Assembly: GCA_902763365.1 (NCBI GenBank)
Contig: CACWRT010000004.1
Span: 1 to 54,680 of the forward strand
Reading direction: 5' to 3'
Source of the DNA: an uncultured Ruminococcus sp.
Lineage (GTDB): Bacteria > Bacillota > Clostridia > Oscillospirales > Acutalibacteraceae
Length of the DNA: 54,680 bases
Shown piece by piece: positions 4,652 through 54,680 of the stretch; positions within the stretch are counted from its first letter, which is position 1; the number at the start of each line of letters is the position of its first letter. Below the pieces are notes generated by a model, which was not told the origin of the DNA, ran no database searches, and saw nothing but the letters and a program-made list of their open reading frames with translations. A program made the position numbers and the translations under genes.

Positions 4652-4694
4652 AGCTCAGAGCTAAGAGCTAAGGGCTCAGAGCATGAGGGCTCAG
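4652..4694. repeat. Heptamer array, AGCTCAG/AGCTAAG type
   Basis: Six units with 7-nt spacing (AGCTCAG, AGCTAAG, AGCTAAG, GGCTCAG, AGCATGA, GGCTCAG, the last shifted by one base) just after the zinc-ribbon gene. The same unit types recur at 54350-54380 and 54653-54680. Confidence 0.75.
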
Positions 4695-4784
4695 ACTTTC
4701 TGACGGATTATGTTATTCCTATGCGGTGAGAAGGTTTTCTTAAATCCGACTCAGATTGAGAAGACAATTAAACAGAATATAATT

Positions 4785-4836
4785 TCAGCTCAAAGCTTTG
4801 CAAATTACAGGTTTGCACGCTTTGAGCTGATTTTTT
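4785..4836 (+). terminator. Intrinsic terminator downstream of the zinc-ribbon gene
   Basis: A 12-bp perfect stem (TCAGCTCAAAGC 4785-4796 with GCTTTGAGCTGA 4819-4830) extended by an inner TGCAAA/TTTGCA pairing, followed by six T. The rest of 4635-4975 holds the heptamer arrays at 4652 and 4964 and no gene. Confidence 0.8.
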
Positions 4837-4963
4837 ATTATTTAGTGTGTAAATAGGGAAAAATCATGTTATCTCCATATCGGTATTGACCAGAACGCTG
4901 TATAATATAGCTCTGACATAAATTATAAAAATCCGGTATTGTGCAGAACAGCCATAAACCATT

Positions 4964-4991
4964 ATTCACTATTCACTATTCATTATTCATT
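4964..4991. repeat. Heptamer array, ATTCACT/ATTCATT type, overlapping a stop codon
   Basis: Four exact 7-nt units: ATTCACT, ATTCACT, ATTCATT, ATTCATT. The array overlaps the end of the MBL-fold gene on the minus strand and supplies its last codons (Met-Asn-Asn-Glu-stop). Confidence 0.85.
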
Positions 4992-5785
4992 AAAAAACTG
5001 CTGTGTGTGAAGAGGAAAGTGATTTCGGGGTAGTCTTTTTTGAGGGATTTCAGAGTGTTGAGTGTATCGGAATAATCGTTGGGATAGCACTGGCTTTTCA
5101 GCAGAGCGGAAGATGGTGTGAGGTCGTTTTCTATAGCCGATTCATCAATAGAAGCGTCTGCTGCAAAGAAAATGTTTTTCTCGGGAAGAAAAAAGCCTGT
5201 CATGGCTTTTGCATGACCCGGTAGATCGACTGCAAGTATGCTGCCGTCACCGAAAACATCAAATACCCATTTAAAGTAGTCTTTCAGAATAGTCTGACCT
5301 TCAAAGATACCGGCTGCTTTTTTAGGTACTTCCTGGGGCGGCATAACAGACGGCATAAGACCGTCTGTGGGGTCGCAAAGTATGACCAGAGTCAGAACCT
5401 TTGCACCCGAACAAAGCTCGTATCTCGGAAGGAGTTTCAGCCCTCCGCAGCATTGAGGGTCGCAGTGTGTGAGAAGGACTTTTCTTACAATGCGGGGATC
5501 AAGCTTGTCTTTTTCAAGCTGCTTATCTATAAAATCCTCTTCGGTAAAGGTTACAGAATATTTTGTAAGGAACTTTGCAAATGATACGGGATTATGCTTT
5601 AGTAAATTACTGCATCCCGTATTTATGAGTATAGTTCCGTATTTTCTATGTTCAAGCATAAATACATTTATGGGCAGCTTCTTTTTAGGAATACTGCATT
5701 TTTTGTACAATATAGGAAAATTAAACTCCTCGTAACCGCATATATATCTTTTTAAGCTGATTATTTTATCTTTGTTTTTATTCAT
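4976..5785 (-). CDS. MBL-fold protein with a degenerate metal site
   Basis: A 269-residue protein with the metallo-beta-lactamase fold order of the N-acyl-homoserine-lactonase-like branch: VFMLEHRKYGTILINTGC (normally IDTG), LLTHCDPQCCGG at 105-115, VDLPGHA with H191, FFAAD with D210, FLFTH with H261. The usual T-H-x-H/D-x-D-H motif reads T106-H107-C-D109-P-Q111-C112, so the Asp-His pair is Gln-Cys. H107, D109, H191, D210 and H261 remain, so one metal may still bind, but normal two-metal hydrolysis is doubtful. AGGAG precedes the ATG. It lies 34 nt after the Ser/Glu-rich membrane protein gene and is probably co-transcribed with it. The C-terminal residues come from a heptamer array. Confidence 0.75.
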   Translation of the reverse strand: MNKNKDKIISLKRYICGYEEFNFPILYKKCSIPKKKLPINVFMLEHRKYGTILINTGCSNLLKHNPVSFAKFLTKYSVTFTEEDFIDKQLEKDKLDPRIVRKVLLTHCDPQCCGGLKLLPRYELCSGAKVLTLVILCDPTDGLMPSVMPPQEVPKKAAGIFEGQTILKDYFKWVFDVFGDGSILAVDLPGHAKAMTGFFLPEKNIFFAADASIDESAIENDLTPSSALLKSQCYPNDYSDTLNTLKSLKKDYPEITFLFTHSSFLMNNE

Positions 5786-5819
5786 ACCTACTCCTGTTTA
5801 CTCAATATCTTGGTCGTCC

Positions 5820-6596
5820 CTAATACTTATATTTCTTTCTTCCACCCTTCATGGGTTTGTAAGAATGTTTGTGATAACGTTTTCTGCCGAAAGAGAAATC
5901 TCCGCCGCCTTTAAGATTAAGGATAAGTATGAGCAGTATAAACACTACTACACCGATAACCGACCATATTATTACTCCCATAAGAAAGGATGAATCCTGT
6001 TCTTCGGAATAAAGATCAAGTTCGGAAGAGGATCTGGACAGGGGCAGCGGAGTGTTTATGAGTCCTTTTTCGCCGCCTGTTTCTTTATTCAGAATTACCG
6101 AGTTTTCCTGATTTTTTTTCTTGCTTTCATAATCGGGATCATCGGCGGGAAGAATAAATTGCAAAGCCCTTATTTTTTCAAAGGGATCGGCTACAGACAA
6201 CTCTGATTCTTCCTCGCTGCTTTGCAGATCGCTGTTCTGATCTGATGTTTCTTCTGAATTGCTGCTTTCTTCGCCGTAGGATGTTTCTTCATTGGAGCTG
6301 TCCTGACTGCTTTCGTCCTGAGATAAATAATCAGTGCTTGTTTCATATGAAGTATCATTCTGCGACTCATACGAATATTCCTGTGAATATGATTCTTCAT
6401 ATGATACCTCCGAGGTAAGGGAAGCTTCCTCGCTTACCTCAATACTACTGAACTGTTCAAAAGACTGTTCAGGATCGAATGATGATTCAGACATTGAAAA
6501 ATCAGATTCGCTTTCTGCTTCGGCATAAACAGGTAAAGTCAAAGAAAATATCGCAGCTGCCGCAAGTATTGCTGCGATAACTCTTTTTATGGTCAT
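5820..6596 (-). CDS. Ser/Glu-rich single-pass surface protein
   Basis: A 258-residue protein: signal peptide (1-25), a long Ser/Glu/Tyr low-complexity extracellular region (about 28-130), a short ordered stretch, one membrane helix (around GVIIWSVIGVVVFILLILIL) and a basic Lys/Arg/Tyr cytosolic tail. The topology resembles an extracellular stalk or receptor-like membrane protein, but no known domain is recognised. A minus-strand promoter (TTGGGT, 17 nt, TATAAT) lies at 6636-6664. The RBS before the ATG is weak (GGCGGTG). The MBL-fold gene follows within 34 nt. Confidence 0.75.
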   Translation of the reverse strand: MTIKRVIAAILAAAAIFSLTLPVYAEAESESDFSMSESSFDPEQSFEQFSSIEVSEEASLTSEVSYEESYSQEYSYESQNDTSYETSTDYLSQDESSQDSSNEETSYGEESSNSEETSDQNSDLQSSEEESELSVADPFEKIRALQFILPADDPDYESKKKNQENSVILNKETGGEKGLINTPLPLSRSSSELDLYSEEQDSSFLMGVIIWSVIGVVVFILLILILNLKGGGDFSFGRKRYHKHSYKPMKGGRKKYKY

Positions 6597-6635
6597 TTTG
6601 GTTCACCGCCGTTTTTATCTAATATTCCATTTCAT

Positions 6636-6664
6636 ATTATAACAGAATTTTTCAGTGTACCCAA
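6636..6664 (-). promoter_or_regulatory. Promoter of the Ser/Glu-rich membrane protein gene
   Basis: Read on the minus strand: -35 TTGGGT (6659-6664), 17-nt spacer, -10 TATAAT (6636-6641). The ATG lies 39 nt downstream of the -10 box. Confidence 0.6.
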
Positions 6665-6726
6665 CTGTTATTTTGACAAATTTTGACATTTGGCGTTGTG
6701 CATTTTAATAGAATATGCACAATAGT

Positions 6727-7866
6727 CTATTGTCTTTCTGTATCCTGACTGATATGTTCATTCAAGGTTTCTGCAAGGACTGTTCCGAGCAGATAGCCTG
6801 TATATCGTACCTCGGTTATGGAATTTGAATCCGATCCGACTTCTATCAGCAGCGACCCGGGAGTCAGATCCATATGATAGGTAAAATCACCGAAATCAAC
6901 CGGCCTTGCAAGGTCAGGGAACATAACAGAGGCTTTTTTCTGAATATTCAGCGCAAACCTGAGATTATATTCCCAGTCGGTAAAACCGGGATCATCGTCA
7001 TAGTTATAACCCGCGAGTATCATAAATTGAGCAGCTTTTTTACCGTCAATTGTGCAGACAGGCTTGGAACGGCTGCTTTCGCTGCCAATACCGTCACGGT
7101 GTATATCCAACAGAACCTTTATAGACGGGTATTTTTCAAGATAGTCCGTTACCGTATCATAGCTTTTGTCGTAAGCGTCCGTATAGCTTGCATCATGGAC
7201 GGTAGTATCGTGAATAGTCCGTATACCGTTTTTTTCAAGCACCTTAGTTATTTCTTCACCTACAGCACAGACATTTTCACTGTTATTGCTGCTTCTGGGG
7301 TAGAAGCTTTCATAATAATATCCGGTATCATAAGGAAGAAAGCTTTCGCTTGTATGGGTATGGTATATAAGTACCTGGGGTTCATTGTTTTTTTCTATGG
7401 AAAAACCCAGCCGCCCATGAAGTTCTTCTTCAATATCAATTTCAGCAGAGGAAATATTTTTTACCTGAACTCCGCCGAAGGCTTCGTTTCCCTGAACGGA
7501 AGTAAATTCAAGAACGGGGTATTGTTCTTCGCCTTCGTGATCTGCGTCATACCTGTCAAGCTCGGACTGGGCAGGTTCATAGTATTGAAAATCAATTTCG
7601 GATACTCCTGACGTTTGTGACACTGCCCTTGACTGTTCACCGGGCTTTTCGGCAGCAGAATTTTGTAACTCACTTACCTCGGGAGAAGGCGCTGCGGCGG
7701 CCTGATACTTATAATTTCCCGACGGAAGTACAGTCTGTGCCGCAATTTCATCAAGTGACCCTATAACCCCTGTCTGTCCTATCCTTGTGATCGTACAAAC
7801 AACTGCGAGTGACAGCAGTCCCGCCGTCATTCCTGCCAGCCCGACTTTATGGAGTGTTATTTTCAT
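6727..7866 (-). CDS. spoIIP: Stage II sporulation protein P (SpoIIP)
   Basis: A 379-residue protein with an N-terminal membrane anchor (AGMTAGLLSLAVVCTI), a low-complexity linker and the SpoIIP catalytic domain from about residue 160. Signature motifs are VLIYHTHTSESF, LLDIHRDG and SLLIEVGSDSNS, which carry the zinc-binding His and Glu residues of this amidase/endopeptidase. SpoIIP cleaves peptidoglycan with SpoIID during engulfment of the forespore. ATG 7866 is 7 nt after GAGG; an in-frame TTG at 7872 is too close to it. It is divergent from gpr, while in Bacillus the two genes are adjacent in the same direction. Confidence 0.93.
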   Translation of the reverse strand: MKITLHKVGLAGMTAGLLSLAVVCTITRIGQTGVIGSLDEIAAQTVLPSGNYKYQAAAAPSPEVSELQNSAAEKPGEQSRAVSQTSGVSEIDFQYYEPAQSELDRYDADHEGEEQYPVLEFTSVQGNEAFGGVQVKNISSAEIDIEEELHGRLGFSIEKNNEPQVLIYHTHTSESFLPYDTGYYYESFYPRSSNNSENVCAVGEEITKVLEKNGIRTIHDTTVHDASYTDAYDKSYDTVTDYLEKYPSIKVLLDIHRDGIGSESSRSKPVCTIDGKKAAQFMILAGYNYDDDPGFTDWEYNLRFALNIQKKASVMFPDLARPVDFGDFTYHMDLTPGSLLIEVGSDSNSITEVRYTGYLLGTVLAETLNEHISQDTERQ

Positions 7867-8057
7867 AATCAAACCTCGTTTTTAGTTTATAGTTTTCGTT
7901 TTTTCCTTCTGAACTGCTTATAGTAATTACAATTTACTCTTACTAATTATATTCCTTGTTTTTTACCGTTATGACAGCGCAGTGAAGTTGTTTTAGCCCG
8001 GATTTGGAACCATCAACTATAAACTTATAAATAGTCATAAAAAGGGAAACTATATTA

Positions 8058-8092
8058 AGTGTGAAGTGTGAAGAGTGGAGTGTGGAGTTGTG
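8058..8092. repeat. Heptamer array, AGTGTGA type, between spoIIP and gpr
   Basis: Five 7-nt units: AGTGTGA, AGTGTGA, AGAGTGG, AGTGTGG, AGTTGTG. The same family, reverse-complemented, occurs at 35247-35281. The rest of the 7867-8169 gap must contain both sporulation promoters, but I see no convincing sigma-E or sigma-G boxes. Confidence 0.8.
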
Positions 8093-8169
8093 ATCTAAAC
8101 TCTGATTTTTACTCTGTTTCCGTTTTGTATTACTATTAACTATAAATGAACTACAGGGAGGAAATAAGG

Positions 8170-9024
8170 ATGATATTGAGGACTGATCTTGCAGTTGAAT
8201 CGCATGAGATGAGCGGAGAAGACGGGGAAGGTATAGTATTTGAAAAGGATAATATCAACGGTATGAGTGTACATCGGCTGAGGATATTTACCGAATCGGC
8301 GGCGAAAAGACTTGGAAAGCCACAGGGGAAATATGTAACTATAGATTCTCTTCCATTATCGGATAATTTCAGGGATGTACAGGAGCAGATCGAAACTATT
8401 TCAGAGGAAATATATTCCATGCTGCCCGATAAGGGAACAGTGCTCGTGATCGGAATAGGGAATACAGACATAACATCGGATGCCCTCGGACCTCTTGCGG
8501 CTCAGACTGTTATAGCTACAAGGCATATCAGGGGAGAGATCGCAAGAAGTACCGGCTTATCAATGCTTCGTCCTGCTGCTGTACTGTCCCCGGGTGTTCT
8601 GGGCAAAACGGGAATTGAAACAGGGGAAATAGTATTGTCGCTTATAAACAGCCTTGATCCTGCTGCTATAATTGCTGTTGATGCGCTTGCTTCAAAAAGC
8701 GTATCACGTCTTGGCACTACAATTCAGATAAGCGACAGCGGCATCTCTCCCGGTTCGGGTATCGGCAACAACAGACTGAAGCTGAACGAAAGAACTCTGG
8801 GTATTCCTGTTATCGGCATTGGTATCCCTACAGTTGTGGACGCATATACACTTGTAAGTGATCTTACGGGGCACAGGGCGGATTTTGATCTGAATCGTTC
8901 TCTTATGGTCACGCCAAAGGAAATCGATCTTCTTGCCGAAAGGGGAGCCAAGCTTATCGGCATGGCTATTAACTGCGCATTACAGCGTGACTATTCTTTC
9001 AACGATCTTGTCAAGCTGCTTTAA
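8170..9024 (+). CDS. gpr: Germination protease GPR
   Basis: A 284-residue aspartic-type peptidase (family A25) that degrades small acid-soluble spore proteins at germination. It starts with the RTDLAVE motif, whose Asp-Leu bond is the auto-processing site in Bacillus GPR. Other family blocks are VLVIGIGNTDITSDALGP, LSPGVLGKTGIETGEIV, AVDALASKS, QISDSGISPGSGIGN and VIGIGIPTVVDA. ATG 8170 is chosen because GGGAGG sits 8 nt before it and gives a 6-residue propeptide. An in-frame ATG at 8146 gives a 14-residue propeptide closer to Bacillus length but has no RBS. Confidence 0.93.
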   Translation: MILRTDLAVESHEMSGEDGEGIVFEKDNINGMSVHRLRIFTESAAKRLGKPQGKYVTIDSLPLSDNFRDVQEQIETISEEIYSMLPDKGTVLVIGIGNTDITSDALGPLAAQTVIATRHIRGEIARSTGLSMLRPAAVLSPGVLGKTGIETGEIVLSLINSLDPAAIIAVDALASKSVSRLGTTIQISDSGISPGSGIGNNRLKLNERTLGIPVIGIGIPTVVDAYTLVSDLTGHRADFDLNRSLMVTPKEIDLLAERGAKLIGMAINCALQRDYSFNDLVKLL

Positions 9025-9103
9025 ATTAATGACCGGCGAGCCGTTTTAACAAATAATTCCGCTTTTCGCTTTCAACATTCCGGATTTTATAACAATTCTA
9101 TAA

Positions 9104-9138
9104 TAAAAAAAGCCTTCCATAGCCGAAGCTATGGAAGG
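9104..9138 (-). terminator. Terminator of the amylase gene with a UUCG tetraloop
   Basis: An 11-bp perfect stem (CCTTCCATAGC 9113-9123, GCTATGGAAGG 9128-9138). Read on the minus strand, the loop is C(UUCG)G, a very stable tetraloop, followed by a run of T. It lies 28 nt beyond the amylase stop. Confidence 0.9.
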
Positions 9139-9165
9139 ACAAATTATAAGGGAATGACAGACATA

Positions 9166-16372: not shown

Positions 16373-16981
16373 ATGAAAAAATTTGCAGCCTTGATACTCA
16401 TTGCATCATTACTTTTATCCATGACAGGATGCGGGTATATAGTGTCGGATTCGGAAAAGGAACTGTTTAATTCGGATTCGGAAAAGGAACTGTTTAATGA
16501 TGTAATGCAGTTGCTCGAAAGTGAATTGCCGCAAAGTATGAAACTGACAGCTGAGAGTGATTCATATTCGCTTGGAATATCAATAAAATGCGGAATTTGT
16601 TCTTCATCTGATAATGCTTTGTTACAGCAGGAAAAATCAAATGTATCATATCTTTTTAATGAATACGGTAAAAAAATATATGATAAAATACGCCCCAAAA
16701 TAAATAAAAGTTTTGGCATTGATATTAATTATTATTCTCAAAAAAAGGAACATAATGAAATGCTTTTGCATTGGAGCATTATTTTTCCGTCAAATAACGA
16801 GAAGAAAGAGTATTCCAATCCTCATCATGCTGCAATAATAAGCGATATTACTAACAATGAAATATACTATGCAGCTCATACTGATGAAAAATATGATGCT
16901 AAAGTTTCAACATTTCTTAATAAATATGAAGATGGTAAAGTATATATAATTCGTTTAAAGGATTTGATCATTACATCATGA
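16373..16981 (+). CDS. Small lipoprotein of unknown function
   Basis: A 202-residue protein with a lipoprotein signal (LSMTGC). A 9-residue segment, SDSEKELFN, is repeated exactly in tandem right after the anchor. The rest is a mixed alpha/beta, Lys/Asn/Tyr-rich extracellular domain with no family I recognise. GAGGTGA precedes the ATG. It overlaps the next gene by ATGA (translational coupling). It opens an AT-richer cluster (16.2-19.8 kb) with the broken membrane protein, the truncated lipase and another membrane-anchored protein. Confidence 0.75.
   Translation: MKKFAALILIASLLLSMTGCGYIVSDSEKELFNSDSEKELFNDVMQLLESELPQSMKLTAESDSYSLGISIKCGICSSSDNALLQQEKSNVSYLFNEYGKKIYDKIRPKINKSFGIDINYYSQKKEHNEMLLHWSIIFPSNNEKKEYSNPHHAAIISDITNNEIYYAAHTDEKYDAKVSTFLNKYEDGKVYIIRLKDLIITS
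16445..16498 (+). repeat. 27-bp perfect tandem duplication in the lipoprotein gene
   Basis: Two identical 27-nt copies (16445-16471, 16472-16498), in frame, duplicate SDSEKELFN. Perfect identity means a recent event. Confidence 0.95.
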
Positions 16982-22577: not shown

Positions 22578-22645
22578 GCCCTTGTAGCTTACAAGCAGAG
22601 CGTCGGATTTATCCGGAGACGGCGGTGCGATTCCGTCCGCGGGCG
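22578..22645 (+). tRNA. tRNA-like sequence with a shortened anticodon arm
   Basis: A 68-nt segment with tRNA geometry. Acceptor GCCCTTG/CGCGGGC (six of seven pair with one GU). TA at positions 8-9. D arm GCTT/GAGC. T stem GGCGG/CCGTC (22621-22625, 22633-22637) with a 7-nt loop TGCGATT directly joined to the acceptor 3' strand. Between the D and T arms are only 19 nt that form a CGGA/TCCG hairpin with a 4-nt loop instead of a 7-nt anticodon loop. The T loop has G at the usual T55, and the D loop lacks GG. A run of six T follows. Best read as a tRNA pseudogene or mimic, not a working tRNA. Confidence 0.4.
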
Positions 22646-28096: not shown

Positions 28097-29233
28097 TCAG
28101 CTTCTTGCAAGAGTAGAAATTGCGATTTTAAGATTGTTTACAAGAATATTTGCATCATCTTCGTTGTTTTGGTCAGAAAAGCTTATTCTTATGGTCGAAT
28201 CTGCTCTTTTTGCGTCATATTTCATTGCTTCCAGGACATGACTTTTGTGACCTTTGGCGCAGGCCGAACCGCTGGATACAAAAATATTTCTTTCTGCCAG
28301 AAAATGCAGCAGGGTTTCCGAGCGGAATCCGGGGACAGAAAAGCTGATAATATAAGGAAGGCAGTTTTCATCCGAGTTTATGATTATACCGTCTGTTTCC
28401 GATAAGACGCGCCTGAAAAAGCCGTTGAGTTCTTTTATTCTTCCGGCTTCATTTTTGTCGTAAACCTCCACTGCCTTGCCCATAGCGCAGATAAGCGGAG
28501 CAGCCTCTGTACCGGGGCGGAGTTTTCTTTCCTGCATACCGCCGAAATGCAGAGGAACTATCCTTGCGCCCTTGCGAACATACAGTGCGCCGACGCCTTT
28601 CGGAGCGTGTATCTTATGTCCACTGACAGTCATAAGGTCGATACCGTATTTTTTAGGTGACAAGGGCATTTTCATATATGCCTGTACGGCGTCAACATGG
28701 AAGAGTGCCGGAGAATCTGCGGCAGTTATAAGTCTTTTAACAGTACTCAGCGGCTGTACAGAACCCAGTTCGTTATTGACCGCCATTATGCTTACCAGTA
28801 TAGTATCTTTTGTTATGGATTTTTTTATATCTTCCTTTTTCACGCATCCGTTTTCGTCAGGGGGAAGATATATCACTTCAAAGCCCTGCTTTTCAAGCTG
28901 CTGCATAGTTTCGTAGACGGAAGAATGTTCTATTGCTGTCGTAACTATGCGGTTTCCGCGTCTTTTCAGGGCGTTTACTGCGCCGAGAACAGCGGTATTG
29001 TTTCCTTCCGTGCCGCCTGATGTGAAATATATCTCTTCCGCAGACGCTGAAAGAGAGTCGGCTATTATCCTGCGGGCATTAGTTATTTCATGCTCTGCTT
29101 CAAGTCCTTTTGAATGAAGTGAAGAAGGGTTGCCCCATATTTCTGTCATTATCCTATATGCCTCATCGGCAGCAGCCTTACACACTCTTGTGGTAGCGCT
29201 GTTGTCAAGATATACTTCTTTCAACTTTATCAC
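28097..29233 (-). CDS. Cysteine desulfurase (NifS/IscS-like, ThiI partner)
   Basis: A 378-residue PLP enzyme. YLDNSATT start, SGGTEGNN, the PLP-lysine motif SGHKIHAPKGVGAL, and the active-site cysteine C325 in SSGSACAKG. It takes sulfur from cysteine and, by gene position, passes it to ThiI, as the NifZ-ThiI pair does in Bacillus. There are no iscU or other Fe-S assembly genes beside it. GTG 29233 lies 5 nt after AAGGA; an in-frame TTG at 29224 is a less likely start. Confidence 0.93.
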   Translation of the reverse strand: MIKLKEVYLDNSATTRVCKAAADEAYRIMTEIWGNPSSLHSKGLEAEHEITNARRIIADSLSASAEEIYFTSGGTEGNNTAVLGAVNALKRRGNRIVTTAIEHSSVYETMQQLEKQGFEVIYLPPDENGCVKKEDIKKSITKDTILVSIMAVNNELGSVQPLSTVKRLITAADSPALFHVDAVQAYMKMPLSPKKYGIDLMTVSGHKIHAPKGVGALYVRKGARIVPLHFGGMQERKLRPGTEAAPLICAMGKAVEVYDKNEAGRIKELNGFFRRVLSETDGIIINSDENCLPYIISFSVPGFRSETLLHFLAERNIFVSSGSACAKGHKSHVLEAMKYDAKRADSTIRISFSDQNNEDDANILVNNLKIAISTLARS

Positions 29234-29247
29234 CCAATTCCTTTTTT

Positions 29248-29261
29248 AATGAATAATGAAT
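29248..29261. repeat. Short heptamer pair AATGAAT
   Basis: Two exact AATGAAT units followed by AATTATA, same family as 4964, 33014 and 35100. Confidence 0.55.
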
Positions 29262-29321
29262 AATTATATAGGTCCGGAGCTTTTTATCTGTTTTTTACTT
29301 TTTGATTTTTTATCCGGCCAT

Positions 29322-32109: not shown

Positions 32110-32175
32110 AACAAACAATATAGGGCATGACGGGAAACCGTTGTGCCTGTTTTTGACCTTAGGGATGGTGAGAGC

Positions 32176-33006
32176 GTGAGTCGGAACGAAAGATTGAAGG
32201 CTAAAAATGAATTGCAGAGAAGCCGCATAAAACGCGGCGGTTCGGGTCTTGGCGGCAGCTTTGTACCCGAAGGAGAAGCAGGACTGGGGCTTAAAAGAGC
32301 CGTTGTTATAATGCCTGTTGTTATCATTGTGATAATAATAATTACATTATTAGTGGGGCTTCATCAGTTCCGCTCCCTTTATGATGCGGATATGTCTTCA
32401 AGACATGAAAGTGTTGTCAGCCGTGCCGAAAAAGAAACGGATGAGGGTAAGCTTCTTCTGACAGTCTCTCCGTCAGAACCTTTGCCCTCGGATTTTCGTA
32501 CAGATCTTGTTTCTGTAGAAGATATTCAGGTAGACCGCATAATGTTAAACGATCTGAAAGCCATGCTGGCGGCTGCCGAAAAAGACGGGCTTGCACTCAG
32601 GCTTACGGGGGGATATGTTTCTGCCGAACAGCAGCAGGAAATGTTCAGCAGCGAAGTCAGCAGACTCATGAGCAGCGAGGGTCTGACAAACACTAATGCT
32701 ATAGAAAAAGCCGAAAAGACTATTCCCGCCGGTGATCACAGCGAAAGGCAAAGCGGTATGCTTGTAACATTTGCGTCGGGAAAGGACAAGGATTTTTCTC
32801 AGACGGAAGAATACAGATGGCTGATACGAAATTCAATGAAATACGGGTTTATACTGCGCTATCCCGAGAGCGGTGAAAAAAGCACAGGATTTTCCTTTGA
32901 TCCAACAGCCTTCCGCTATGTAGGAAAGGAAAATGCTTCCAAAATAGTAACACTCAACATGACCCTTGAGGACTATTCATCATACCTCAAATCAAGAGAA
33001 AACTGA
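32176..33006 (+). CDS. VanY-fold (M15) membrane protein lacking the zinc ligands
   Basis: A 276-residue protein: basic cytosolic N-terminus, one membrane helix (VVIMPVVIIVIIIITLLVG), and an extracellular domain following the D-Ala-D-Ala carboxypeptidase VanY pattern (LTGGYVSAEQQQEMF, EEYRWLIRNSMKYGFILRYP, FRYVG, MTLEDYSSYL). The zinc motif SxHxxGxAxD reads S189-E-R191-Q-S-G-M-L-V-T198, and the EPWH motif reads D242-P-T-A245. All three zinc ligands and the catalytic Glu are altered, so it should be a non-catalytic peptidoglycan-binding relative. GTG 32176 is close to AGGGATGGTG; GTG 32143 is an alternative. Confidence 0.75.
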   Translation: MSRNERLKAKNELQRSRIKRGGSGLGGSFVPEGEAGLGLKRAVVIMPVVIIVIIIITLLVGLHQFRSLYDADMSSRHESVVSRAEKETDEGKLLLTVSPSEPLPSDFRTDLVSVEDIQVDRIMLNDLKAMLAAAEKDGLALRLTGGYVSAEQQQEMFSSEVSRLMSSEGLTNTNAIEKAEKTIPAGDHSERQSGMLVTFASGKDKDFSQTEEYRWLIRNSMKYGFILRYPESGEKSTGFSFDPTAFRYVGKENASKIVTLNMTLEDYSSYLKSREN

Positions 33007-33013: not shown

Positions 33014-33055
33014 AATGAATAGTGATAAGGAGTTAGGAGTTAGGAATTAGGAATT
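33014..33055. repeat. Composite heptamer array (AATGAAT, then AGGAGTT/AGGAATT)
   Basis: Six units in one 7-nt phase: AATGAAT, AGTGATA, AGGAGTT, AGGAGTT, AGGAATT, AGGAATT. Two heptamer types are joined without loss of phase. Confidence 0.8.
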
Positions 33056-33134
33056 AAATATAGTTTTTTCTTAGATGGCTGATGTAGCAGTTCAGTGCAA
33101 AGATTATGTAAGGAGAAAAATGCATAATAAAGAT

Positions 33135-33635: not shown

Positions 33636-34297
33636 AGATCAGAACAGGCGGCATTATATGGGAGATAAGCTTTCCGCTGGCGGCAGTCATGACGCTGGTA
33701 GTTCTTTATGACAGCAGTCTGTCAGTAACAGCTTGCTTTATATCCGTTCTTATACATGAGATGGGGCATATCCTTGTGATGGCTGTGTTCGGGAAAAAGC
33801 CCGAAAGGATAAAGCTTACGCTTTTTGACTTTGCTATTGTCAGCAGTTCAAAAGGTCTGCTGGATCTGCGGCGTGAAATGGCTGTTATACTTGCAGGAGT
33901 CTGTGCCAATTTTACGGCCGCTTTGTTCGGATGGGTGATCTGTTCTTACGGTGTGTCGGAATTTGCGGAAAAATTCATGAATACCAATCTTTCTCTGGCT
34001 TTTTTCAATATTATGCCTATAGAAAGTCTTGACGGCGGACAGGCATTTACGCGTCTTTTGTGCAGCCGTATAAGAACCGAAAAAGCTTTTCTGATCTCGG
34101 ATATAGTGTCGGTGATATTTATTGTTCCGCTGGGAACGCTGGGATTTATTGTACTGATAAGGACAGGATATAACTTTTCCGTACTGCTGACGGCAGTTTA
34201 TCTTGCTTCTTTGCTTATAATGAAAGAACCTCACAAATTCGGTCGTCTGCTAAGATCGGGAGATAAAAAACAGAAGGAGAACACAAATGGAATATAA
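33632..34297 (+). CDS. M50 (site-2 type) intramembrane metalloprotease, SpoIVFB-like
   Basis: A 221-residue protein with several membrane helices. The zinc site HEMGH lies in the second helix (VLIHEMGHILVMAVFG) and the third ligand in FFNIMPIESLDGGQAF. Length and motif spacing fit the SpoIVFB branch, which cleaves pro-sigma-K in the mother cell membrane, but the pro-sigma-K-specific CBS domain is absent. Alternative substrates such as anti-sigma factors are possible. It is coupled to the preceding small membrane protein and overlaps the next gene by 11 nt. Confidence 0.82.
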   Translation: MKIRTGGIIWEISFPLAAVMTLVVLYDSSLSVTACFISVLIHEMGHILVMAVFGKKPERIKLTLFDFAIVSSSKGLLDLRREMAVILAGVCANFTAALFGWVICSYGVSEFAEKFMNTNLSLAFFNIMPIESLDGGQAFTRLLCSRIRTEKAFLISDIVSVIFIVPLGTLGFIVLIRTGYNFSVLLTAVYLASLLIMKEPHKFGRLLRSGDKKQKENTNGI

Positions 34298-35108
34298 AAT
34301 AACACAGCGCGGCGCAGAGCTTTATGCGCCCGTAGAATTTGATCTTTTGAACACGTTTGAATGTGGACAATGCTTCCGCTGGATGAAAGCTGATGACGGA
34401 GCATATACATCTATAGTAAAAGGCAGATTTGTTCGTGTATACCGTGAGGGTGACACCGTTATAATAGACGGGACGGACGAAGAAACATTTGAAACACTGT
34501 GGAGAGAATATTTCGATATTGATACGGATTATGAAGCTCTGCGGCAGGAAATGGTAGGTCTTTGTCCCGATCTGCAAAAAGCGGCAGGAAAGCTGAACGG
34601 TATACGCATACTTCGTCAGGAACCATGGGAAGCTCTCTGCTCGTTTATAATTTCACAAAATAACAATATCCCCCGTATTCAGGGGATAGTTTCAAGGCTT
34701 TGTGAAAATTTCGGGGATGATACCGGTATGGGATATTCTTTTCCTTGCGCGGAAAGGATCGCAGCCCTTGAAGCAGAAGATCTTGCGGTACTCAGAGCAG
34801 GCTTCAGGGCAAGATACATAATTGATGCCGCAAGAAAATGCAGTGACGGCAGAGTTGACCTTGAAAGGCTGAGGGATGCTCCTATTGATGAAGCAAGACG
34901 TGAGCTTATGACTATTACGGGAGTAGGAAACAAAGTAGCAGACTGCACAATGCTTTACGGTCTGCATAAGATGGAAGCCTTCCCCATAGATGTCTGGATG
35001 AAAAAAGCTCTCAGCAGTGAATTCTCAGGCGTAACGCCCGATTCTCTCGGCAGAACCGCCGGCATCGCACAGCAGTACATTTTCCATTACACCAGAAATA
35101 ATGAATAA
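34287..35108 (+). CDS. OGG-type 8-oxoguanine DNA glycosylase
   Basis: A 273-residue protein. OGG_N-like N-terminal domain (FDLLNTFECGQCFRW), then the HhH-GPD domain with SFIISQNNNIPRI, the helix-hairpin-helix LMTITGVGNKVADC carrying the catalytic Lys, and the Asp motif FPIDVWM. It would excise 8-oxo-G and cut the strand (bifunctional, AP-lyase). GGAG precedes the ATG by 9 nt. The last residues (Asn-Asn-Glu) are encoded by a heptamer array, so the natural C-terminus may have been replaced. Confidence 0.88.
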   Translation: MEYKITQRGAELYAPVEFDLLNTFECGQCFRWMKADDGAYTSIVKGRFVRVYREGDTVIIDGTDEETFETLWREYFDIDTDYEALRQEMVGLCPDLQKAAGKLNGIRILRQEPWEALCSFIISQNNNIPRIQGIVSRLCENFGDDTGMGYSFPCAERIAALEAEDLAVLRAGFRARYIIDAARKCSDGRVDLERLRDAPIDEARRELMTITGVGNKVADCTMLYGLHKMEAFPIDVWMKKALSSEFSGVTPDSLGRTAGIAQQYIFHYTRNNE

Positions 35109-35124
35109 TGAATAGTGAATAATG
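35100..35124. repeat. Heptamer array AATGAAT/AGTGAAT at the end of the glycosylase gene
   Basis: AATGAAT, AATGAAT, AGTGAAT, AATG in 7-nt phase. It overlaps the last codons and stop of the glycosylase gene. Confidence 0.8.
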
Positions 35125-35246
35125 TTTAGCTGATTTGTAGCTTCATTCTGTAAATGGGGGAAAGGGGGAAAAGCCTTTGCTTTGTTCCGGTGAAAAAACT
35201 GCGGCGAAAAAATGACAATATGCTGATAAAAGCTGAAGCCGACATA

Positions 35247-35281
35247 ACTCCACTCTTCACTCTTCACACTCCACACTCTTC
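35247..35281. repeat. Heptamer array, ACTCCAC/TCTTCAC type
   Basis: ACTCCAC, TCTTCAC, TCTTCAC, ACTCCAC, ACTCTTC in phase; the reverse complement belongs to the family at 8058-8092. It ends 6 nt before the stop codon of the next minus-strand gene. Confidence 0.8.
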
Positions 35282-35286: not shown

Positions 35287-35817
35287 TCAACATTTTTCGA
35301 GGGTTTTAACAGAATTCATAACGTGTTTGTTGCCGGATGTGTCGGTAACGTCTTGTTTATCCTGACTTTTAAGAATAATATTGCCGTCCTTGTCGGTTTC
35401 GATACCGTAGCGTATCTCGGCAGGGGGCATTTTTTCTCTTCTCATATTATCGTCGGATATGTAAAGGACAACTTCCTTGTCGTCGTATTCATAGGTGAAG
35501 TCCTGAGCGTCAAATGAATTGCCGTTCTTTTCATTATATACGGTTATAATGCCTGTGCCTGATTTTGTAAAGGTATATATAAGATCGCCCATATACATGG
35601 GTACGGGGTCTTTGCCCTCACCGGCATCTATCATCAGATATCCGATCTTCTCTTCGGAATACAATTTATCGTCCATGAAAGTTTTGTCGGATGTAAGCTT
35701 CCATTTTCCTATGGGATTAAAGTCAAAATCACTGCATCCCGTCATTGACAGGGACGACAGCGCTCCTATGCTGACAGCGGCAGCTATTGATATAATACGG
35801 CGCAGTATTTTTTTCAT
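35287..35817 (-). CDS. Lipoprotein with a possible lipocalin-like fold
   Basis: A 176-residue protein with a lipoprotein signal ending SMTGC. The exported part begins with IGKWKLTSDKT, the start pattern of small beta-barrel lipocalin-like or DUF5640-type lipoproteins of Firmicutes, and continues as alternating beta strands (YTFTKSGTGIITVY, FTYEYDDKEVVLYI). Ligand unknown. GGAAG lies before the ATG. Monocistronic as far as seen. Confidence 0.75.
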   Translation of the reverse strand: MKKILRRIISIAAAVSIGALSSLSMTGCSDFDFNPIGKWKLTSDKTFMDDKLYSEEKIGYLMIDAGEGKDPVPMYMGDLIYTFTKSGTGIITVYNEKNGNSFDAQDFTYEYDDKEVVLYISDDNMRREKMPPAEIRYGIETDKDGNIILKSQDKQDVTDTSGNKHVMNSVKTLEKC

Positions 35818-45974: not shown

Positions 45975-45990
45975 GTAAGGAGGAGTAACT

Positions 45991-46488: not shown

Positions 46489-46508
46489 TAATTGGGAGGA
46501 GAAGCAGT

Positions 46509-46688: not shown

Positions 46689-46706
46689 TAGAGGAGGTGC
46701 GATAAA

Positions 46707-47147: not shown

Positions 47148-47148
47148 T

Positions 47149-48468: not shown

Positions 48469-48506
48469 TAAACATAAATATCAGAAGACGAAAGGAGCAA
48501 AACTTT

Positions 48507-49139: not shown

Positions 49140-49145
49140 CAAAAT

Positions 49146-49898: not shown

Positions 49899-49908
49899 GG
49901 TGACAAAA

Positions 49909-50163: not shown

Positions 50164-50176
50164 GGAGGCAAATTTT

Positions 50177-50395
50177 ATGTCAAAAGAAGACGTAATTGAG
50201 GTAGAGGGTGTTGTAAAAGAGGCTCTTCCGAACGCGCAGTTCAAAGTAGAGCTTCCTAACGGACATATAATCCTTGCTCATATATCGGGAAAACTCAGGA
50301 TGAATTTCATCAGGATCCTCCCGGGTGACAAGGTAAAGATCGAGATGTCGCCGTACGATCTTACAAAAGGTCGTATAACATGGCGCAGTAAGTAA
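50177..50395 (+). CDS. infA: Translation initiation factor IF-1
   Basis: 72 residues, exact length ([58 protein letters not shown]). S1/OB fold that binds the 30S A site. AAGGAGG RBS. Confidence 0.98.
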
Positions 50396-50429
50396 ATCCC
50401 TGAAGGGGTATGAAAGGAATGATAACACG

Positions 50430-50543
50430 ATGAAAGTCAGACCTTCAGTTAAAAAGATTTGTGAAAAGTGTAAGGTTATAAAGCGTAAGGGCAAAATCAT
50501 GGTTATCTGTGAAAACCCGAAGCACAAACAGCGTCAGGGTTAA
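50430..50543 (+). CDS. rpmJ: Ribosomal protein bL36, zinc form
   Basis: 37 residues: [20 protein letters not shown] ... [12 protein letters not shown], with the C-x2-C ... C-x4-H zinc ligands of the C+ form. Short gene between infA and rpsM. GAAAGGAATG RBS. Confidence 0.97.
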
Positions 50544-50577
50544 TGACGCATTAATACCAACGGAGGTGCAAAGATAA

Positions 50578-50946
50578 ATGGCACGTATTGCAGGTGTAGA
50601 TTTACCCAGAGATAAGAGAGTCGAAATCGGCCTCACTTATATATTCGGCATCGGCCGCAAGACATCAAATGACATTCTTGCAGCAACAGGTGTTAATCCT
50701 GATACTCGTGTAAGAGATCTTACAGAGGAAGATGTTGCAAAGATCAAGGAATATATTGATCATAACTGCAGAGTAGAGGGTGACCTCAGAAGAGATATCG
50801 CATTTGATATCAAGAGACTGATCGAGATCGGTTGCTACAGAGGAATCCGCCATCGTACAAACCTTCCCGTTCGTGGTCAGCGTTCAAAGACAAACGCTCG
50901 TACCAGAAAGGGTAAGAGAAAGACAATGGCTAATAAGAAGAAGTAA
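50578..50946 (+). CDS. rpsM: Ribosomal protein uS13
   Basis: 122 residues ([56 protein letters not shown]). Head protein contacting P-site tRNA and bridge B1. CGGAGGT RBS. Confidence 0.98.
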
Positions 50947-50962
50947 TCAGGAGGGATAACTG

Positions 50963-51367
50963 ATGGCAGTTCAGAAAGGTGCAAAAAAGGCTACTGTACG
51001 CAGACGCCGTGAACGTAAAAATATCGAGAAGGGCGCAGCGCACATTCAGTCAACATTCAATAATACAATCGTAACGATATCTGATGTTCACGGAAATGCA
51101 ATTTCATGGGCAAGCGCAGGTGAGCTTGGCTTCAGAGGCTCCAGAAAATCAACTCCTTTTGCGGCTCAGTCAGCAGCTGAAACAGCAGCAAAGGCAGCTA
51201 TGGAGCATGGTATGAAGTCCGTTGAGGTATATGTAAAAGGACCGGGTGCAGGTCGTGAGGCTGCGATCCGCGCACTTCAGTCCGCAGGTCTTGAGGTCAG
51301 CATGATCAAAGACGTTACCCCGATTCCCCACAACGGTTGCCGTCCTCCCAAGAGAAGACGTGTATAA
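50963..51367 (+). CDS. rpsK: Ribosomal protein uS11
   Basis: 134 residues ([60 protein letters not shown]). Lines the mRNA exit site. AGGAGGG RBS. Confidence 0.98.
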
Positions 51368-51387
51368 TTTAACGGAGGTGCTATAAA

Positions 51388-51984
51388 ATGGCAGTAAACA
51401 GAGATCCAATTCTCAAGAGATGCAGATATCTCGGCATAAGCCCGGCAGTAGTCGGTATTGATAAATCATCAAAGAGAAATCCTAATGCCAATTCCAGAAG
51501 AAAAGTATCTGAGTATGGCATTCAGCTCAAGGAAAAGCAGAAGCTCAAGTTCATCTATGGCGTACTTGAGAAGCCTTTCCATCATTATTTTGAACTTGCT
51601 TCAAAGATGGAAGGTCAGGCAGGTAATAACCTGATCACAATTCTTGAATCAAGACTTGATAACATAGTATTCAGAATGGGTTATGCTCTTACAAGAAGAG
51701 ATGCAAGACAGCTTGCAACTCATGGTCACTTCCTTGTAAACGGACAGAGAGTTGATATTCCTTCATACAGAGTAAAAGAAGGCGATGTAATTACTCTCAG
51801 AGAGAAGAGCAGAAGCAGCGCAAAGTTCAAGGATACGATTGAACAGACAGCAAGCAGAACAACTCCTCTCTGGCTTGAGGTAAATAAAGATCAGTACTCC
51901 GCTAAGGTAGTAAGAATGCCTTCAATCGAGGATATCGATTACGAAGTTGCTCCTCACCTTATCGTTGAGTTGTACTCCAAGTAA
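51388..51984 (+). CDS. rpsD: Ribosomal protein uS4, zinc-free form
   Basis: 198 residues (SEYGIQLKEKQKLKFIYGVLE, RLDNIVFRMGYALTRRDARQLATHGHFLVNGQRV with the S4 RNA-binding domain). The N-terminal zinc knuckle is absent, with a single Cys at RCRY. Assembly initiator of the 30S subunit. In E. coli it represses the alpha operon. CGGAGGT RBS. Confidence 0.98.
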   Translation: MAVNRDPILKRCRYLGISPAVVGIDKSSKRNPNANSRRKVSEYGIQLKEKQKLKFIYGVLEKPFHHYFELASKMEGQAGNNLITILESRLDNIVFRMGYALTRRDARQLATHGHFLVNGQRVDIPSYRVKEGDVITLREKSRSSAKFKDTIEQTASRTTPLWLEVNKDQYSAKVVRMPSIEDIDYEVAPHLIVELYSK

Positions 51985-52011
51985 TCTATTACTTAGTTCG
52001 GTTACACAAAC

Positions 52012-52027
52012 GGCGGCGCAAGCCGCC
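52012..52027 (+). promoter_or_regulatory. GNRA-loop hairpin just upstream of rpoA
   Basis: GGCGGC (52012-52017), GCAA loop, GCCGCC (52022-52027), with no T-run, ending 7 nt before the AAGGAGG of rpoA. A very stable capped hairpin in the rpsD-rpoA gap; it may protect or tune the rpoA message. Confidence 0.6.
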
Positions 52028-52048
52028 TGATGTTAAGGAGGTTAGCTG

Positions 52049-53011
52049 ATGTTCGAATTTCAAAAGCCCAGAATAGAAACAACAGAATTATCCGATGACG
52101 GCAGAATCGGCAGATTTGTCGTAGAGCCCCTTGAGAGAGGCTTCGGCATTACTCTCGGCAACAGCCTGCGCAGAGTACTCCTTTCCTCACTGGAGGGTGT
52201 AGCTGTTACTTCCATCAAGATAGATGGAGTACTGCACGAATTTTCTACTATCCCCGGCGTAAAAGAAGATGTAACTGCAATAGTACTTAATATGAAGGGA
52301 CTTATTGCAAAGCTTCACTGTGACGGTCCCAAGACAGTAGAGATAAGTGCTGAAGGTCCGTGTGTTGTAACGGCAGAGTCTATCAAAAAAGATGCAGAAG
52401 TAGAGATACTGAACCCCGATCTTCATATAGCAACTCTCGGAGAGGGAGCAAAGCTTTATATGGAGATAACACTGAGTAAGGGCAGAGGATATATTTCTGC
52501 TGAGCGCAATAAGGAAGAGCTTGCTCAGAATAACGCAAGTGTTATCGGCATACTTCCTATAGATTCCATCTATACACCTGTACTCAAGGTAAACTATAAC
52601 ATAGAGAATACACGTGTTGGTCAGATAACAGACTATGATAAACTGACGATAGATGTATGGACAAACGGTGTTATATCAGCACAGGAAGCTGTGTCACTTG
52701 CAGCGAAAGTACTGACAGAGCATCTTAATCTGTTTGTTAACCTTTCGGATAAGGGTACAAATACAGAGGTCATGGTAGAGAAGAATGACCAGGGGAAAGA
52801 GAAAGCGCTTGAGATGACAATAGAGGAGCTTGATCTTTCGGTTCGTTCCTTCAACTGCCTCAAGAGAGCGAATATCAATACCGTTGAGGATCTTACAAAC
52901 AAGACCGAGGACGAGATGATGAAAGTAAGAAATCTCGGACGTAAGTCGCTGGATGAAGTTATAGATAAGCTTACAAAGCTTGGATTTACACTTCGCAGCA
53001 ATGAAGAATAA
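52049..53011 (+). CDS. rpoA: RNA polymerase alpha subunit
   Basis: 320 residues. N-terminal assembly domain ([29 protein letters not shown]) and C-terminal domain ([34 protein letters not shown]) that binds UP elements and activators. Standard length. AAGGAGG RBS 8 nt before the ATG. Confidence 0.98.
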
Positions 53012-53041
53012 AATTATTACCAAATAAAGGAGTGAATATCG

Positions 53042-53383
53042 ATGCCCGGAACAAGAAAACTCGGCAGAGAGACAGCTCATAGAACAGCAATGCTCAGAGC
53101 AATGGTAACCTTCCTGCTCGAAAACGGCAAGATCGAAACAACCGTTACTCGTGCCAAAGAAGTAAGTGCTTTGACAGAGAAGTTCATTACTCTTGCAAAG
53201 GTAGAGAACCTTGCAAACAAAAGAGCTGCTATGGCTTTCATTACAAAGGAAGATGTTGTAAAGAAACTCTTTACAGAGATTGCACCTAAGTATGCTGACA
53301 GAAACGGCGGATATACCCGTATCACGAAGATCGGTCCTCGCCGCGGCGATGCAGCTGAGATGGCTGTTATCGAACTCATCTGA
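53042..53383 (+). CDS. rplQ: Ribosomal protein bL17
   Basis: 113 residues ([61 protein letters not shown]). Last gene of the ribosomal operon; a terminator follows 11 nt later. AAAGGAG RBS. Confidence 0.98.
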
Positions 53384-53393
53384 TAATTAATCT

Positions 53394-53427
53394 ACGGCTT
53401 GTCGGTTTTCGCCGGCAGGCCGTTTTT
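53394..53427 (+). terminator. Terminator of the ribosomal operon
   Basis: A 12-bp stem with two GU pairs (ACGGCTTGTCGG 53394-53405, CCGGCAGGCCGT 53412-53423) followed by TTTTT. Confidence 0.85.
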
Positions 53428-53453
53428 GATGTGATACGGGGGGAGATAGTCTT

Positions 53454-53849
53454 ATGAAGAAAAAACGTATCATATATGCCGCTGCTTTTTTAATACTGTT
53501 GGTTACGGAAATACTTATAGGAGCATTTGTTCATGACAGTTTTGTCAGACCGTATCTGGGCGATGTACTTGTGGTCATCCTTTTATATTGCCTGATAAGA
53601 ATAATTATACCGGAAAAGTGCAGACTTCTGCCGCTTTATCTGTTTATTTTTGCAGCAGGAGTTGAACTGTTGCAGGGATTGCAGCTTGCTGATAAACTTG
53701 GAATAACTTCTCAGCTGTTAAGGACAATCATAGGAACCGTATGTGACGTAAAAGATATTATCTGCTATGCGGCAGGCTGTACATTGCTTGGATTATATGA
53801 GCTTCTGATAATAAAAATTGAAAAGAAAAGGAGTATAAACAATGAATAA
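53454..53849 (+). CDS. DUF2809 family membrane protein
   Basis: 131 residues with four membrane helices. Family motifs are FVHDSFVRPYLGDVLVVILLYCLIR and the VELLQ / AGCTLLGLYE regions. Found in many bacteria; function unknown, probably a small integral membrane protein. GGGGGAG RBS. It overlaps the next gene by 8 nt, so the two are coupled. Confidence 0.8.
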   Translation: MKKKRIIYAAAFLILLVTEILIGAFVHDSFVRPYLGDVLVVILLYCLIRIIIPEKCRLLPLYLFIFAAGVELLQGLQLADKLGITSQLLRTIIGTVCDVKDIICYAAGCTLLGLYELLIIKIEKKRSINNE

Positions 53850-54333
53850 TTTCAATAACAATAGTAATCAAAACAGCTACAATAACACCCCTCAAGCTGA
53901 TGCCGGTGGAAATTTGGGAATGGAATTACTTAAAACCATAGGTATAAGCCTTTTAGGCGGTCTGATAGGCGGTGCATTGTGGTTCGGACTTTCATTTTTA
54001 GGGCGTATGGCAGTAATCTCAGGAGTTGCAGCAGGGCTCGGAGGAGCTTTCGGCGGTATGTCAACAGGAAGTAACAGCCGTGCGCTGAAGCTCACATTGG
54101 GAATTGTAATTTCATTAGCCTTATTTTGTGCGGGTGTATATCTCGGAATAGGGGTTGATATATACAAAGCGCTGGAGGGAGTAGTACCTCTGAACGAATG
54201 TATAAATCTTATACCCGATGTATTCACCGATCCCGACATATCACACGGATTTATCTTTGATATTGTCATCGGTATTATTACATATCTTGTAGGTCTTGTA
54301 GCAGGCATAGTTAAACTCAAGGATATTACGTAA
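53842..54333 (+). CDS. Small membrane protein with an Asn-rich N-terminus
   Basis: 163 residues: an Asn/Ser-rich N-terminus (MNNFNNNSNQNSYNN), glycine-rich membrane segments (ISLLGGLIGGALWFGLSFL, AAGLGGAFGGM), then two more helices. No family recognised. The start lies inside the DUF2809 gene behind AAAAGGAG. Confidence 0.7.
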   Translation: MNNFNNNSNQNSYNNTPQADAGGNLGMELLKTIGISLLGGLIGGALWFGLSFLGRMAVISGVAAGLGGAFGGMSTGSNSRALKLTLGIVISLALFCAGVYLGIGVDIYKALEGVVPLNECINLIPDVFTDPDISHGFIFDIVIGIITYLVGLVAGIVKLKDIT

Positions 54334-54346
54334 TCAGCTCAGAGCA

Positions 54347-54568
54347 GCTTCGCAGCTCAGAGCTAAGAGTTCAGGGCTCAGAGCATGGCATCTCATTTTT
54401 CATAGCTGACATTTGTTTTGTTTGTCATTGAGCCACTTAAAAAGCCTGAGACGCGGGCTTCGCAGCTCAGAGCTAAGAGTTCAGGGCTCAGAGCATGGCA
54501 TCTCATTTTTCATAGCTGACATTTGTTTTGTTTGTCATTGAGCCGCTTAAAAAGCCTGATACGCGGGC
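54347..54568. repeat. 110-bp unit duplicated in tandem
   Basis: Two adjacent copies (54347-54456 and 54457-54566, the last two bases GC starting a third) differing at two positions. Each contains a heptamer array (AGCTCAG, AGCTAAG, AGTTCAG, GGCTCAG, AGCATGG), a spacer CATAGCTGACATTTG..., and the CCTGA-ACGCGGG end block shared with the dispersed repeat family. No ORF. Confidence 0.9.
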
Positions 54569-54645
54569 AGTGAAGCCTGAGCGGCGAGTTCAGAGCGGAT
54601 GCGAAGCGGAGCGATACCCGCGTTTAGGGTCCGGCGGCTCGCCGG
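54549..54645 (-). repeat. Dispersed structured repeat, copy C
   Basis: Read on the minus strand: GGCGAGCCGCCGG, ACGCGGGTATCGCTCCGC, CTCTGAACTCGCCGCTCAGG, CCCGCGTATCAGG, then TTTTT. It is clearly homologous to copy A at 15518. A further heptamer array (AGCTCAA, AGCTAAG, AGCTAAG, AGCTCAG) closes the window at 54653-54680. Confidence 0.75.
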
Positions 54646-54680
54646 GGTTCATAGCTCAAAGCTAAGAGCTAAGAGCTCAG

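Follow-up and report, generated by a model that had tools for sequence, protein, structure and literature searches.

Short arrays of tandem heptamers lie between the genes of an uncultured Ruminococcus sp., and we followed them from a 54,680-nt stretch, referred to here as the window. The draft genome amounts to 3.31 Mb over 211 contigs, of which the window is contig 4. With a probability of roughly three in four, we read these arrays as the ends of small elements that form a family of the intervening-sequence (IVS) kind; on this reading the window holds derivatives or remnants at gene borders that lack the protein gene. The full form would consist of a heptamer array, a gene for the 23S rRNA intervening-sequence protein (IVP; PF05635, a four-helix bundle) and an inverted heptamer array of like word, and it measures 0.4–0.8 kb in seven plasmid copies. 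Because no PF05635 gene lies in the window, its copies are called derivatives rather than full IVS/IVP members, and the classical IVS location inside 23S rRNA does not apply to them, the window arrays being intergenic.

Heptamer arrays and their association with IVP genes

Arrays were scored as local runs of matches at a given lag (match +1, mismatch −2). By lag-7 score, the window holds eight arrays at 11 or more, seven at 12 or more and five at 14 or more, against 0.05, 0 and 0 arrays per window in 60 order-2 Markov simulations. A genome sample of 854,680 bp (26% of the genome), comprising the window and forty 20-kb contig starts, yielded 34 period-7 arrays at 14 or more, 29 of them intergenic by gene models that are crude, combining open reading frames with codon scoring. 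At the same threshold there were none at periods 4, 5, 8, 10 and 19, one each at periods 3, 6, 11 and 20, and two to seven at periods 9 and 12–18, and ten intergenic-sized simulations produced no period-7 array; the sampled DNA comes from contig starts, and repeats are where draft contigs break. Among 80 loci of named relatives taken together with the window (1.18 Mb), 36 period-7 arrays were found and one each at periods 5, 6 and 8. The heptamer arrays are real, and the genome-wide family that the first-pass annotation of the window had proposed is borne out by these counts. The plain autocorrelation of intergenic DNA, which it had suggested as a check, is raised at lag 7 (0.290, compared with 0.278 at lag 6 and 0.283 at lag 8), weakly so and below lags 2, 3 and 21, because arrays make up a small share of intergenic DNA.

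The first clue to a source came from two loci of relatives, L039 and L040, in which arrays of like word face each other around a small gene matching PF05635. This family was matched in 27 of 61 genus genomes, including the present one, whose four copies each adjoin an array, on both sides for those on contigs 6 and 71 and on one side for those on contigs 51 and 58 (the contig 58 copy starts at the contig edge). The words at these copies (GGAATTA to GGAAAGT, AGCTCAG, GAATAAT and CATTGCA) include kin of three of the four word families first noted in the window, with GTGTGAA having no IVP copy here. Of the 52 listed genus matches 30 were retrieved as loci, 28 of which contain an IVP frame according to our own profile; an array lay within 250 bp in 26 of these 28, and on both sides in 13. 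A tblastn search with one IVP gave 33 plasmid records, mostly from cyanobacteria, with Monoglobus, Treponema, Bernardetia, Chlorohelix and Azospirillum among the remainder; 15 of the 18 loci examined had an array within 250 bp, and 14 had arrays on both sides. Array density within 250 bp of an IVP gene was 3.45/kb in the genus and 3.56/kb in the plasmids, against 0.068/kb and 0.158/kb beyond 600 bp, and arrays of other periods from 4 to 12 were almost absent near IVP genes. In a Bacillota sample, PF05635 was matched in 35 of 199 genomes, and 23 of 29 newly examined loci had an array within 400 bp, 12 on both sides. Both the association and the anatomy of the full form were observed directly.

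Arrays around other genes were rare: eight of 2,231 genes were bracketed within 250 bp, four of them by well-matching inverted words, in a test that excludes IVP genes since the codon-based caller missed every one. A rerun with plain reading frames recovered three IVP genes, all bracketed, a set that includes the discovery cases L039 and L040, which share the same flanking sites.

The two arrays of an element carry like words in inverted orientation. Pooling the 28 genus, 29 Bacillota and 18 plasmid genes with L039 and L040 (these two having been chosen for their arrays) gave 77 IVP genes, 42 of which were flanked on either side by an array no more than 400 bp away. The inverted word match exceeded the direct match in 40 of the 42, with mean matches (of 7) of 5.62 inverted, 3.46 direct and 3.51 between elements, and the element's own partner array was the best of all in 27; at least four of the 42 pairs match weakly, and the pairs are not independent, some loci sharing flanks (15 pairs). 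A tie between the word and the type of IVP was considered and rejected (Spearman 0.16, with 1 of 500 permutations as high). Only the 7 pairs with more than about 70% protein identity showed clear word similarity, and the word seems to change faster than the IVP protein. The predicted RNA fold of the Nostoc element L195 contains a 34-bp stem of its arrays (z −8.2), and the contig 71 element of this genome folds with a z of −8.6. The IVP of the genome matches the solved structures 2gsc (XCC0516, E 1.2e-25) and 2rld.

Array density also differs between IVP-rich and IVP-less genomes. At the starts of contigs 1–4, ten genus genomes with at least two IVP genes had 48 arrays in 570,895 bp (84/Mb), compared with three in 561,319 bp (5.3/Mb) for ten genomes with none, and other periods hardly differed between the two groups. 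The arrays are therefore nearly absent from the sampled IVP-less genomes of the genus.

Several further observations concern the surroundings of IVP genes. In L185, L189, L192 and L199 they lie between defence-operon genes, namely hsdS/hsdR, cas2/cas1 (twice) and a DISARM-like helicase/BREX-like methylase pair. A piece resembling the start of a tRNA gene stands on both sides of the IVP element of L168 (1350–1950). Degenerate repeats are visible by eye at the Monoglobus and Azospirillum IVP loci, and a motif like TATGGCGGCTCAGGCTTTATTCGC, likewise seen by eye only, lies just inside the arrays beside several solo arrays and inside one IVP element.

Polarity, facing pairs and presence or absence between relatives

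Polarity was defined, for arrays scoring at least 12, as the direction of the strand with more G than C relative to the gene edge. Of the 33 arrays that lie no farther than 60 nt from a called gene edge in this genome, 30 have the G-strand pointing outward (21/21 at 3' edges and 9/12 at 5' edges); farther out, 9 of 13 do. Array-free 30-nt stretches at offset 0 from 5' edges lean the opposite way (outward 55, inward 368, tie 33), and those at 3' edges are nearly even (outward 216, inward 178, tie 55). Neighbouring arrays no more than 700 bp apart face each other in 11 of 14 pairs in this genome, a count that includes the L089 IVP element and a pair of low complexity, and in 8 of 14 pairs in twenty genus genomes. 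Gene-less hairpins of facing heptamer arrays with 8–25 nt between them occur at L282 4179–4382, where the hairpin is tandemly doubled, and at L243 10024–10095; at L110 100–233 and L115 14260–14396, a short repeat with inverted ends (CAGACYGTG...) is bordered by AATTCCT heptamer arrays. A gradient from T to G between outer and inner units, suggested by the genus arrays (23 vs 8; P = 0.011, one of many comparisons), was rejected as a rule over all 110 arrays (54 vs 49).

In the window, an ogg-like gene and its convergent neighbour stand 178 bp apart, the gap being bounded by the arrays at 35097–35278. The closest named relatives of the genome are rumen Ruminococcus assemblies, the nearest having an ogg-like protein 80% identical, and the relatives compared come from collections with one genome per species. 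No array was present at this site in 12 relative rows (seven distinct genomes as judged by equal identity values, some rows being one genome counted twice), and the gaps between protein matches there measured 18, 20, 102, 103, 144, 163 and 3,472 bp; in L005, two stop codons lie a few bases apart (read by eye from the protein ends, the automatic alignment being poor). The matching places were also array-free at a vanY-like site in 12 relative rows and at a nifS-like site in 13, and the rows over the three sites include repeats of one genome. Conservation of the arrays without change, an outcome that the first-pass annotation had named as damaging to its view, was accordingly not seen.

Comparable differences were found outside the genus. 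In one of three Nostoc plasmids an IVP element separates cas2 from cas1, which abut in the other two; at a second Nostoc site, about 190 bp found in each of the four unoccupied copies aligned are missing from the occupied one. Of two near-identical 23S genes in genome G241, one carries 85 nt of facing heptamer arrays and the other a 16-nt helix tip; in the 23S rRNA of G241, two split IVP pieces have a facing array pair between them (L326 1453–1769), and in G116 and G176 IVP genes with heptamer arrays lie inside 23S rRNA. Presence and absence between relatives was thus directly observed at the ogg, Nostoc and rRNA sites, and target DNA was missing at two compared plasmid sites and one rRNA site. 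No target-site duplication was noticed at the few aligned sites (ogg, Nostoc and rRNA), where no systematic test of flanks was made. Joining the flanks of a Planktothrix element retrieved no empty site, and the same join for Dolichospermum retrieved one place, 74% identical and poorly aligned; two such joins for Nostoc led to the Nostoc sites given above. An IVP-less pair in G004 (L243 9192–9374) has a left array identical to that of an IVP copy in the same genome (L159), and on the right its array is the same as the opening 31 nt of the L159 array. Two same-genome IVP pairs were not copies of each other over element and flanks.

Arrays and other repeats of the window

The arrays of the window sit at gene borders, often in facing pairs. 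Seven of the eleven sites listed by the first-pass annotation are strong, with no other lag among 4–11 scoring above 5. The first (4645–4694, + strand; AGCTCAG/AGCTAAG; listed from 4652; lag-7 score 13, degenerate past 4676) begins 10 nt past the 3' end of gene 3312–4634 and is faced by a second (4963–4992, − strand; GAATAGT/GAATAAT; listed from 4964; score 20) that overlaps the 3' end of gene 4976–5785. The array at 8057–8088 (+ strand; GAAGTGT/GGAGTGT; listed from 8058; score 16) lies between divergent spoIIP-like and gpr-like genes, with a polarity contrary to the outward rule. Directly past the 3' end of gene 32143–33006 stands the array at 33014–33056 (+ strand; AATGAAT/AGTGATA followed by GGAGTTA/GGAATTA; score 19 for 33028–33056). 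The stop codon of the ogg-like gene 34287–35108 is supplied by the array at 35097–35124 (+ strand; AATAATG/AATAGTG; listed from 35100; score 15); its facing partner at 35251–35278 (− strand; GAAGAGT/GGAGTGT; listed from 35247; score 15) stands 8 nt from the 3' end of gene 35287–35817, and the interior of this pair (35122–35250; arrays 129 nt apart) contains no IVP gene. The last, at 54649–54677 (+ strand; AGCTCAA/AGCTAAG; listed from 54653; score 13), is at the contig end.

The listed site at 54350 is moderate. Its degenerate AGCTCAG array (54354–54384, + strand) has a lag-7 score of 6, equal to its lag-8 score, and is reported with 75% matches by Tandem Repeats Finder, which also reports a second degenerate copy at 54464–54494 (+ strand); both are contained in a 110-bp tandem duplication (54347–54568). 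The remaining three sites, 1641, 29322 and 21614, are at chance level, their lag-7 scores (4, 5 and 4) being barely or not above those at other lags. One short array was absent from the list (29247–29264, + strand; TAATGAA; score 11); it is upstream of the nifS-like gene 28097–29233 (− strand), 13 nt from its 5' end.

A GC-rich dispersed repeat (CCGGCGAGCCGCCGGACCCTAAACGCGGG...) occupies 54568–54650 of the window and recurs at L098 1–551, L102 14073–14358 and L124 14870–15380. In the genome sample as many as 69 matches to it overlap at a single base, and it often lies at contig ends. The possibility that the arrays are part of this high-copy repeat was rejected, as 24 of 45 arrays have no copy of it on either side within 45 nt. 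The window further contains an S10 leader, sporulation genes, an IS110-family RNA-guided transposase gene (93–1328), a 36-bp repeat in 9.4 copies (3705–4044) within gene 3312–4634, an exact 27-bp tandem duplication within an open reading frame (16445–16498) and an Rfam tRNA match (22578–22645; 41.8 bits) at a place where ARAGORN gives none.

Known systems, rival explanations and meaning

Cyanobacteria carry short tandemly repeated repetitive (STRR) heptamers in intergenic arrays. Degenerate intergenic heptamers of this type are found here in a host that is not a cyanobacterium, and the kinship that the first-pass annotation had suspected is upheld by plasmids of Nostoc, Anabaena, Calothrix and others, which carry arrays beside the same gene family. 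Its view that a common process lies behind the different words is also judged right; its picture of free-standing repeats is what gives way, to inverted arrays around IVP genes. The TAACTGA repeats of Beggiatoaceae (PMC4679880) and the GGGAATC repeats of Xanthomonas and Nostoc (PMC4692102) are degenerate intergenic heptamers as well. Inverted pairs of the latter number 70 and 75 in two Xanthomonas strains, and the repeats are described as generally apart from mobile elements, with few pairs in Nostoc PCC 7120 (PMC4692102); the IVP protein XCC0516 comes from Xanthomonas campestris. These cyanobacterial, Xanthomonas and Beggiatoaceae repeats are compared here by their published descriptions rather than from the chromosomes, and IVP genes are not named in those portions of PMC4692102 and PMC4679880 that the terms searched reached.

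The closest parallel from the rRNA side is the 23S rRNA IVS of Coxiella burnetii, described as a selfish element with an S23/IVP frame in the loop of a stem formed by its inverted ends, heptamer repeats (two to three units, depending on the strain) before the S23 gene, and excision by RNase III (PMC4990558). The IVP genes and pieces inside 23S rRNA in G116, G176 and G241 resemble it, and the inverted ends of IVP copies likewise form a predicted stem; the facing pairs of the window match poorly. The copies described here differ in being mostly outside rRNA and spread over several phyla, with arrays at both ends and many gene-less pairs. Miniature inverted-repeat transposable elements offer another likeness, that of short gene-less pieces whose inverted ends match a larger gene-bearing copy (L243 and L159), but here the larger copy has no transposase, no target-site duplication was noticed, target DNA is missing at the compared sites and the two ends of a window pair are unlike. 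PF05635 has structural kin in the Avd proteins of diversity-generating retroelements (PMC10053308), although in the genus no linked reverse transcriptase was seen to accompany IVP genes. In the open literature, subscription papers and preprints being mostly outside our coverage, we found no paper joining heptamer repeats in general with IVP genes, and PMC4990558 was the one found to note heptamers at an S23 gene.

Under the reading of the arrays as element ends, the two arrays can pair in RNA to give a long hairpin with the gene in its loop. Copies are located within 23S rRNA genes, in between the genes of operons and in intergenic stretches. By analogy with the published rRNA IVS, the arrays may pair in the cell and be cut by RNase III, and the IVP may bind them. 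Insertion would proceed via an RNA or hairpin intermediate, and copying of one arm from the other, with 7-nt slips, could keep both ends on like words. We infer the link between IVP elements and the arrays of the window from the words that they share, from polarity and facing pairs, from the contrast in copy number and from a single empty site.

A number of results weigh against this reading. The PF05635 matches of the genome are confined to contigs 6, 51, 58 and 71, with none in the window, and the facing pairs of the window have unlike words (inverted match 3.0 and 4.3 of 7). Three of the 18 plasmid loci (Monoglobus, Nostoc UHCC 0870 and Azospirillum) fall below the array score, as do 6 of the 29 Bacillota loci, at which no Rfam match reached the gathering score, and of four additional records, comprising two faecal contigs labelled as phage and two plasmids whose IVP proteins are distant, one has an array. 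The outward-G rule, strong in this genome, is weak elsewhere: within 60 nt, the G-strand points outward in 16 of 22 arrays of the named relatives (one tie) and 20 of 29 in twenty genus genomes (two ties), in the latter it is reversed beyond 60 nt (6 out vs 13 in), and two plasmid elements have the opposite polarity. In the copy-number test, two genomes supply 37 of the 48 IVP-rich arrays, three of the ten IVP-rich genomes have no array in the sample, and among genomes with more than 40 kb sampled (6 vs 6) the Mann-Whitney P is 0.035. A reverse transcriptase acting in trans finds no support, RVT_1 being present in 7 of the 9 genus genomes with IVP genes and in 6 of the 9 without, and three same-genome IVP pairs thought to have transposed proved to be repeated 23S rRNA genes with long shared flanks.

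Three other explanations were weighed. Simple-sequence repeats could arise by polymerase slippage, with 7 nt as the polymerase contact length (an explanation attributed to Mrazek et al. 2007 by PMC4679880), which fits units that are near-identical in tandem, the statement that long repeats are, in most genomes, most commonly heptanucleotide ones (PMC4679880) and the variation in unit number between strains at one rRNA IVS (PMC4990558). Slippage may well set the number of units within an array; as the origin of the arrays it is unlikely, since it leaves unexplained the like word inverted across the same gene, siting by one gene family, the facing pairs and the contrast with IVP-less genomes. 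Repeats of that kind would have no linked second copy or gene, whereas inverted partners, IVP genes and facing pairs are all present here. Still less probable is a telomere-like extension or filler synthesis, in which broken ends each receive a heptamer array and are rejoined, often with loss of DNA. The G-strand pointing outward from gene edges in 30 of 33 arrays, the different words at the two ends of the window insertions and the missing target DNA would all fit such a process, but IVP copies have like words at both ends, plus a gene, and the polarity is not universal.

That the arrays are functional cis elements kept by selection, as an all-frame translation stop, a regulator binding site or a transcription end, has the lowest probability that we assign. 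Many words contain a stop codon, 7 is prime to 3, and a role in translation has been suggested (PMC4679880); against this, matching sites in the compared relatives are array-free and some words, GAGTGTG among them, lack a stop in all frames (checked by hand). Translation stop was dropped as the main cause because array orientation tracks the gene border at 5' edges as well as at 3' edges.

Beyond the reading of the window arrays as ends of IVS-kind elements, we put forward tentatively, at somewhat less than even odds, that there is a widespread class of recombinase-less mobile elements, in which inverted heptamer arrays stand alone or enclose an Avd-like IVP gene, and that this class would spread through RNA or a hairpin, replace target DNA and be the common source of the cyanobacterial, Xanthomonas, Beggiatoaceae and rRNA-IVS heptamers. 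Heptamer repeats have so far been described separately for each lineage, with no source given, and rRNA IVSs have no known spreading route. If they belong to one family, the repeats would be its ends and rRNA one kind of insertion site, so that each would explain the other. The search for arrays near PF05635 genes is easy to repeat, and, if the proposal is true, a protein family of unknown function would gain a testable role.

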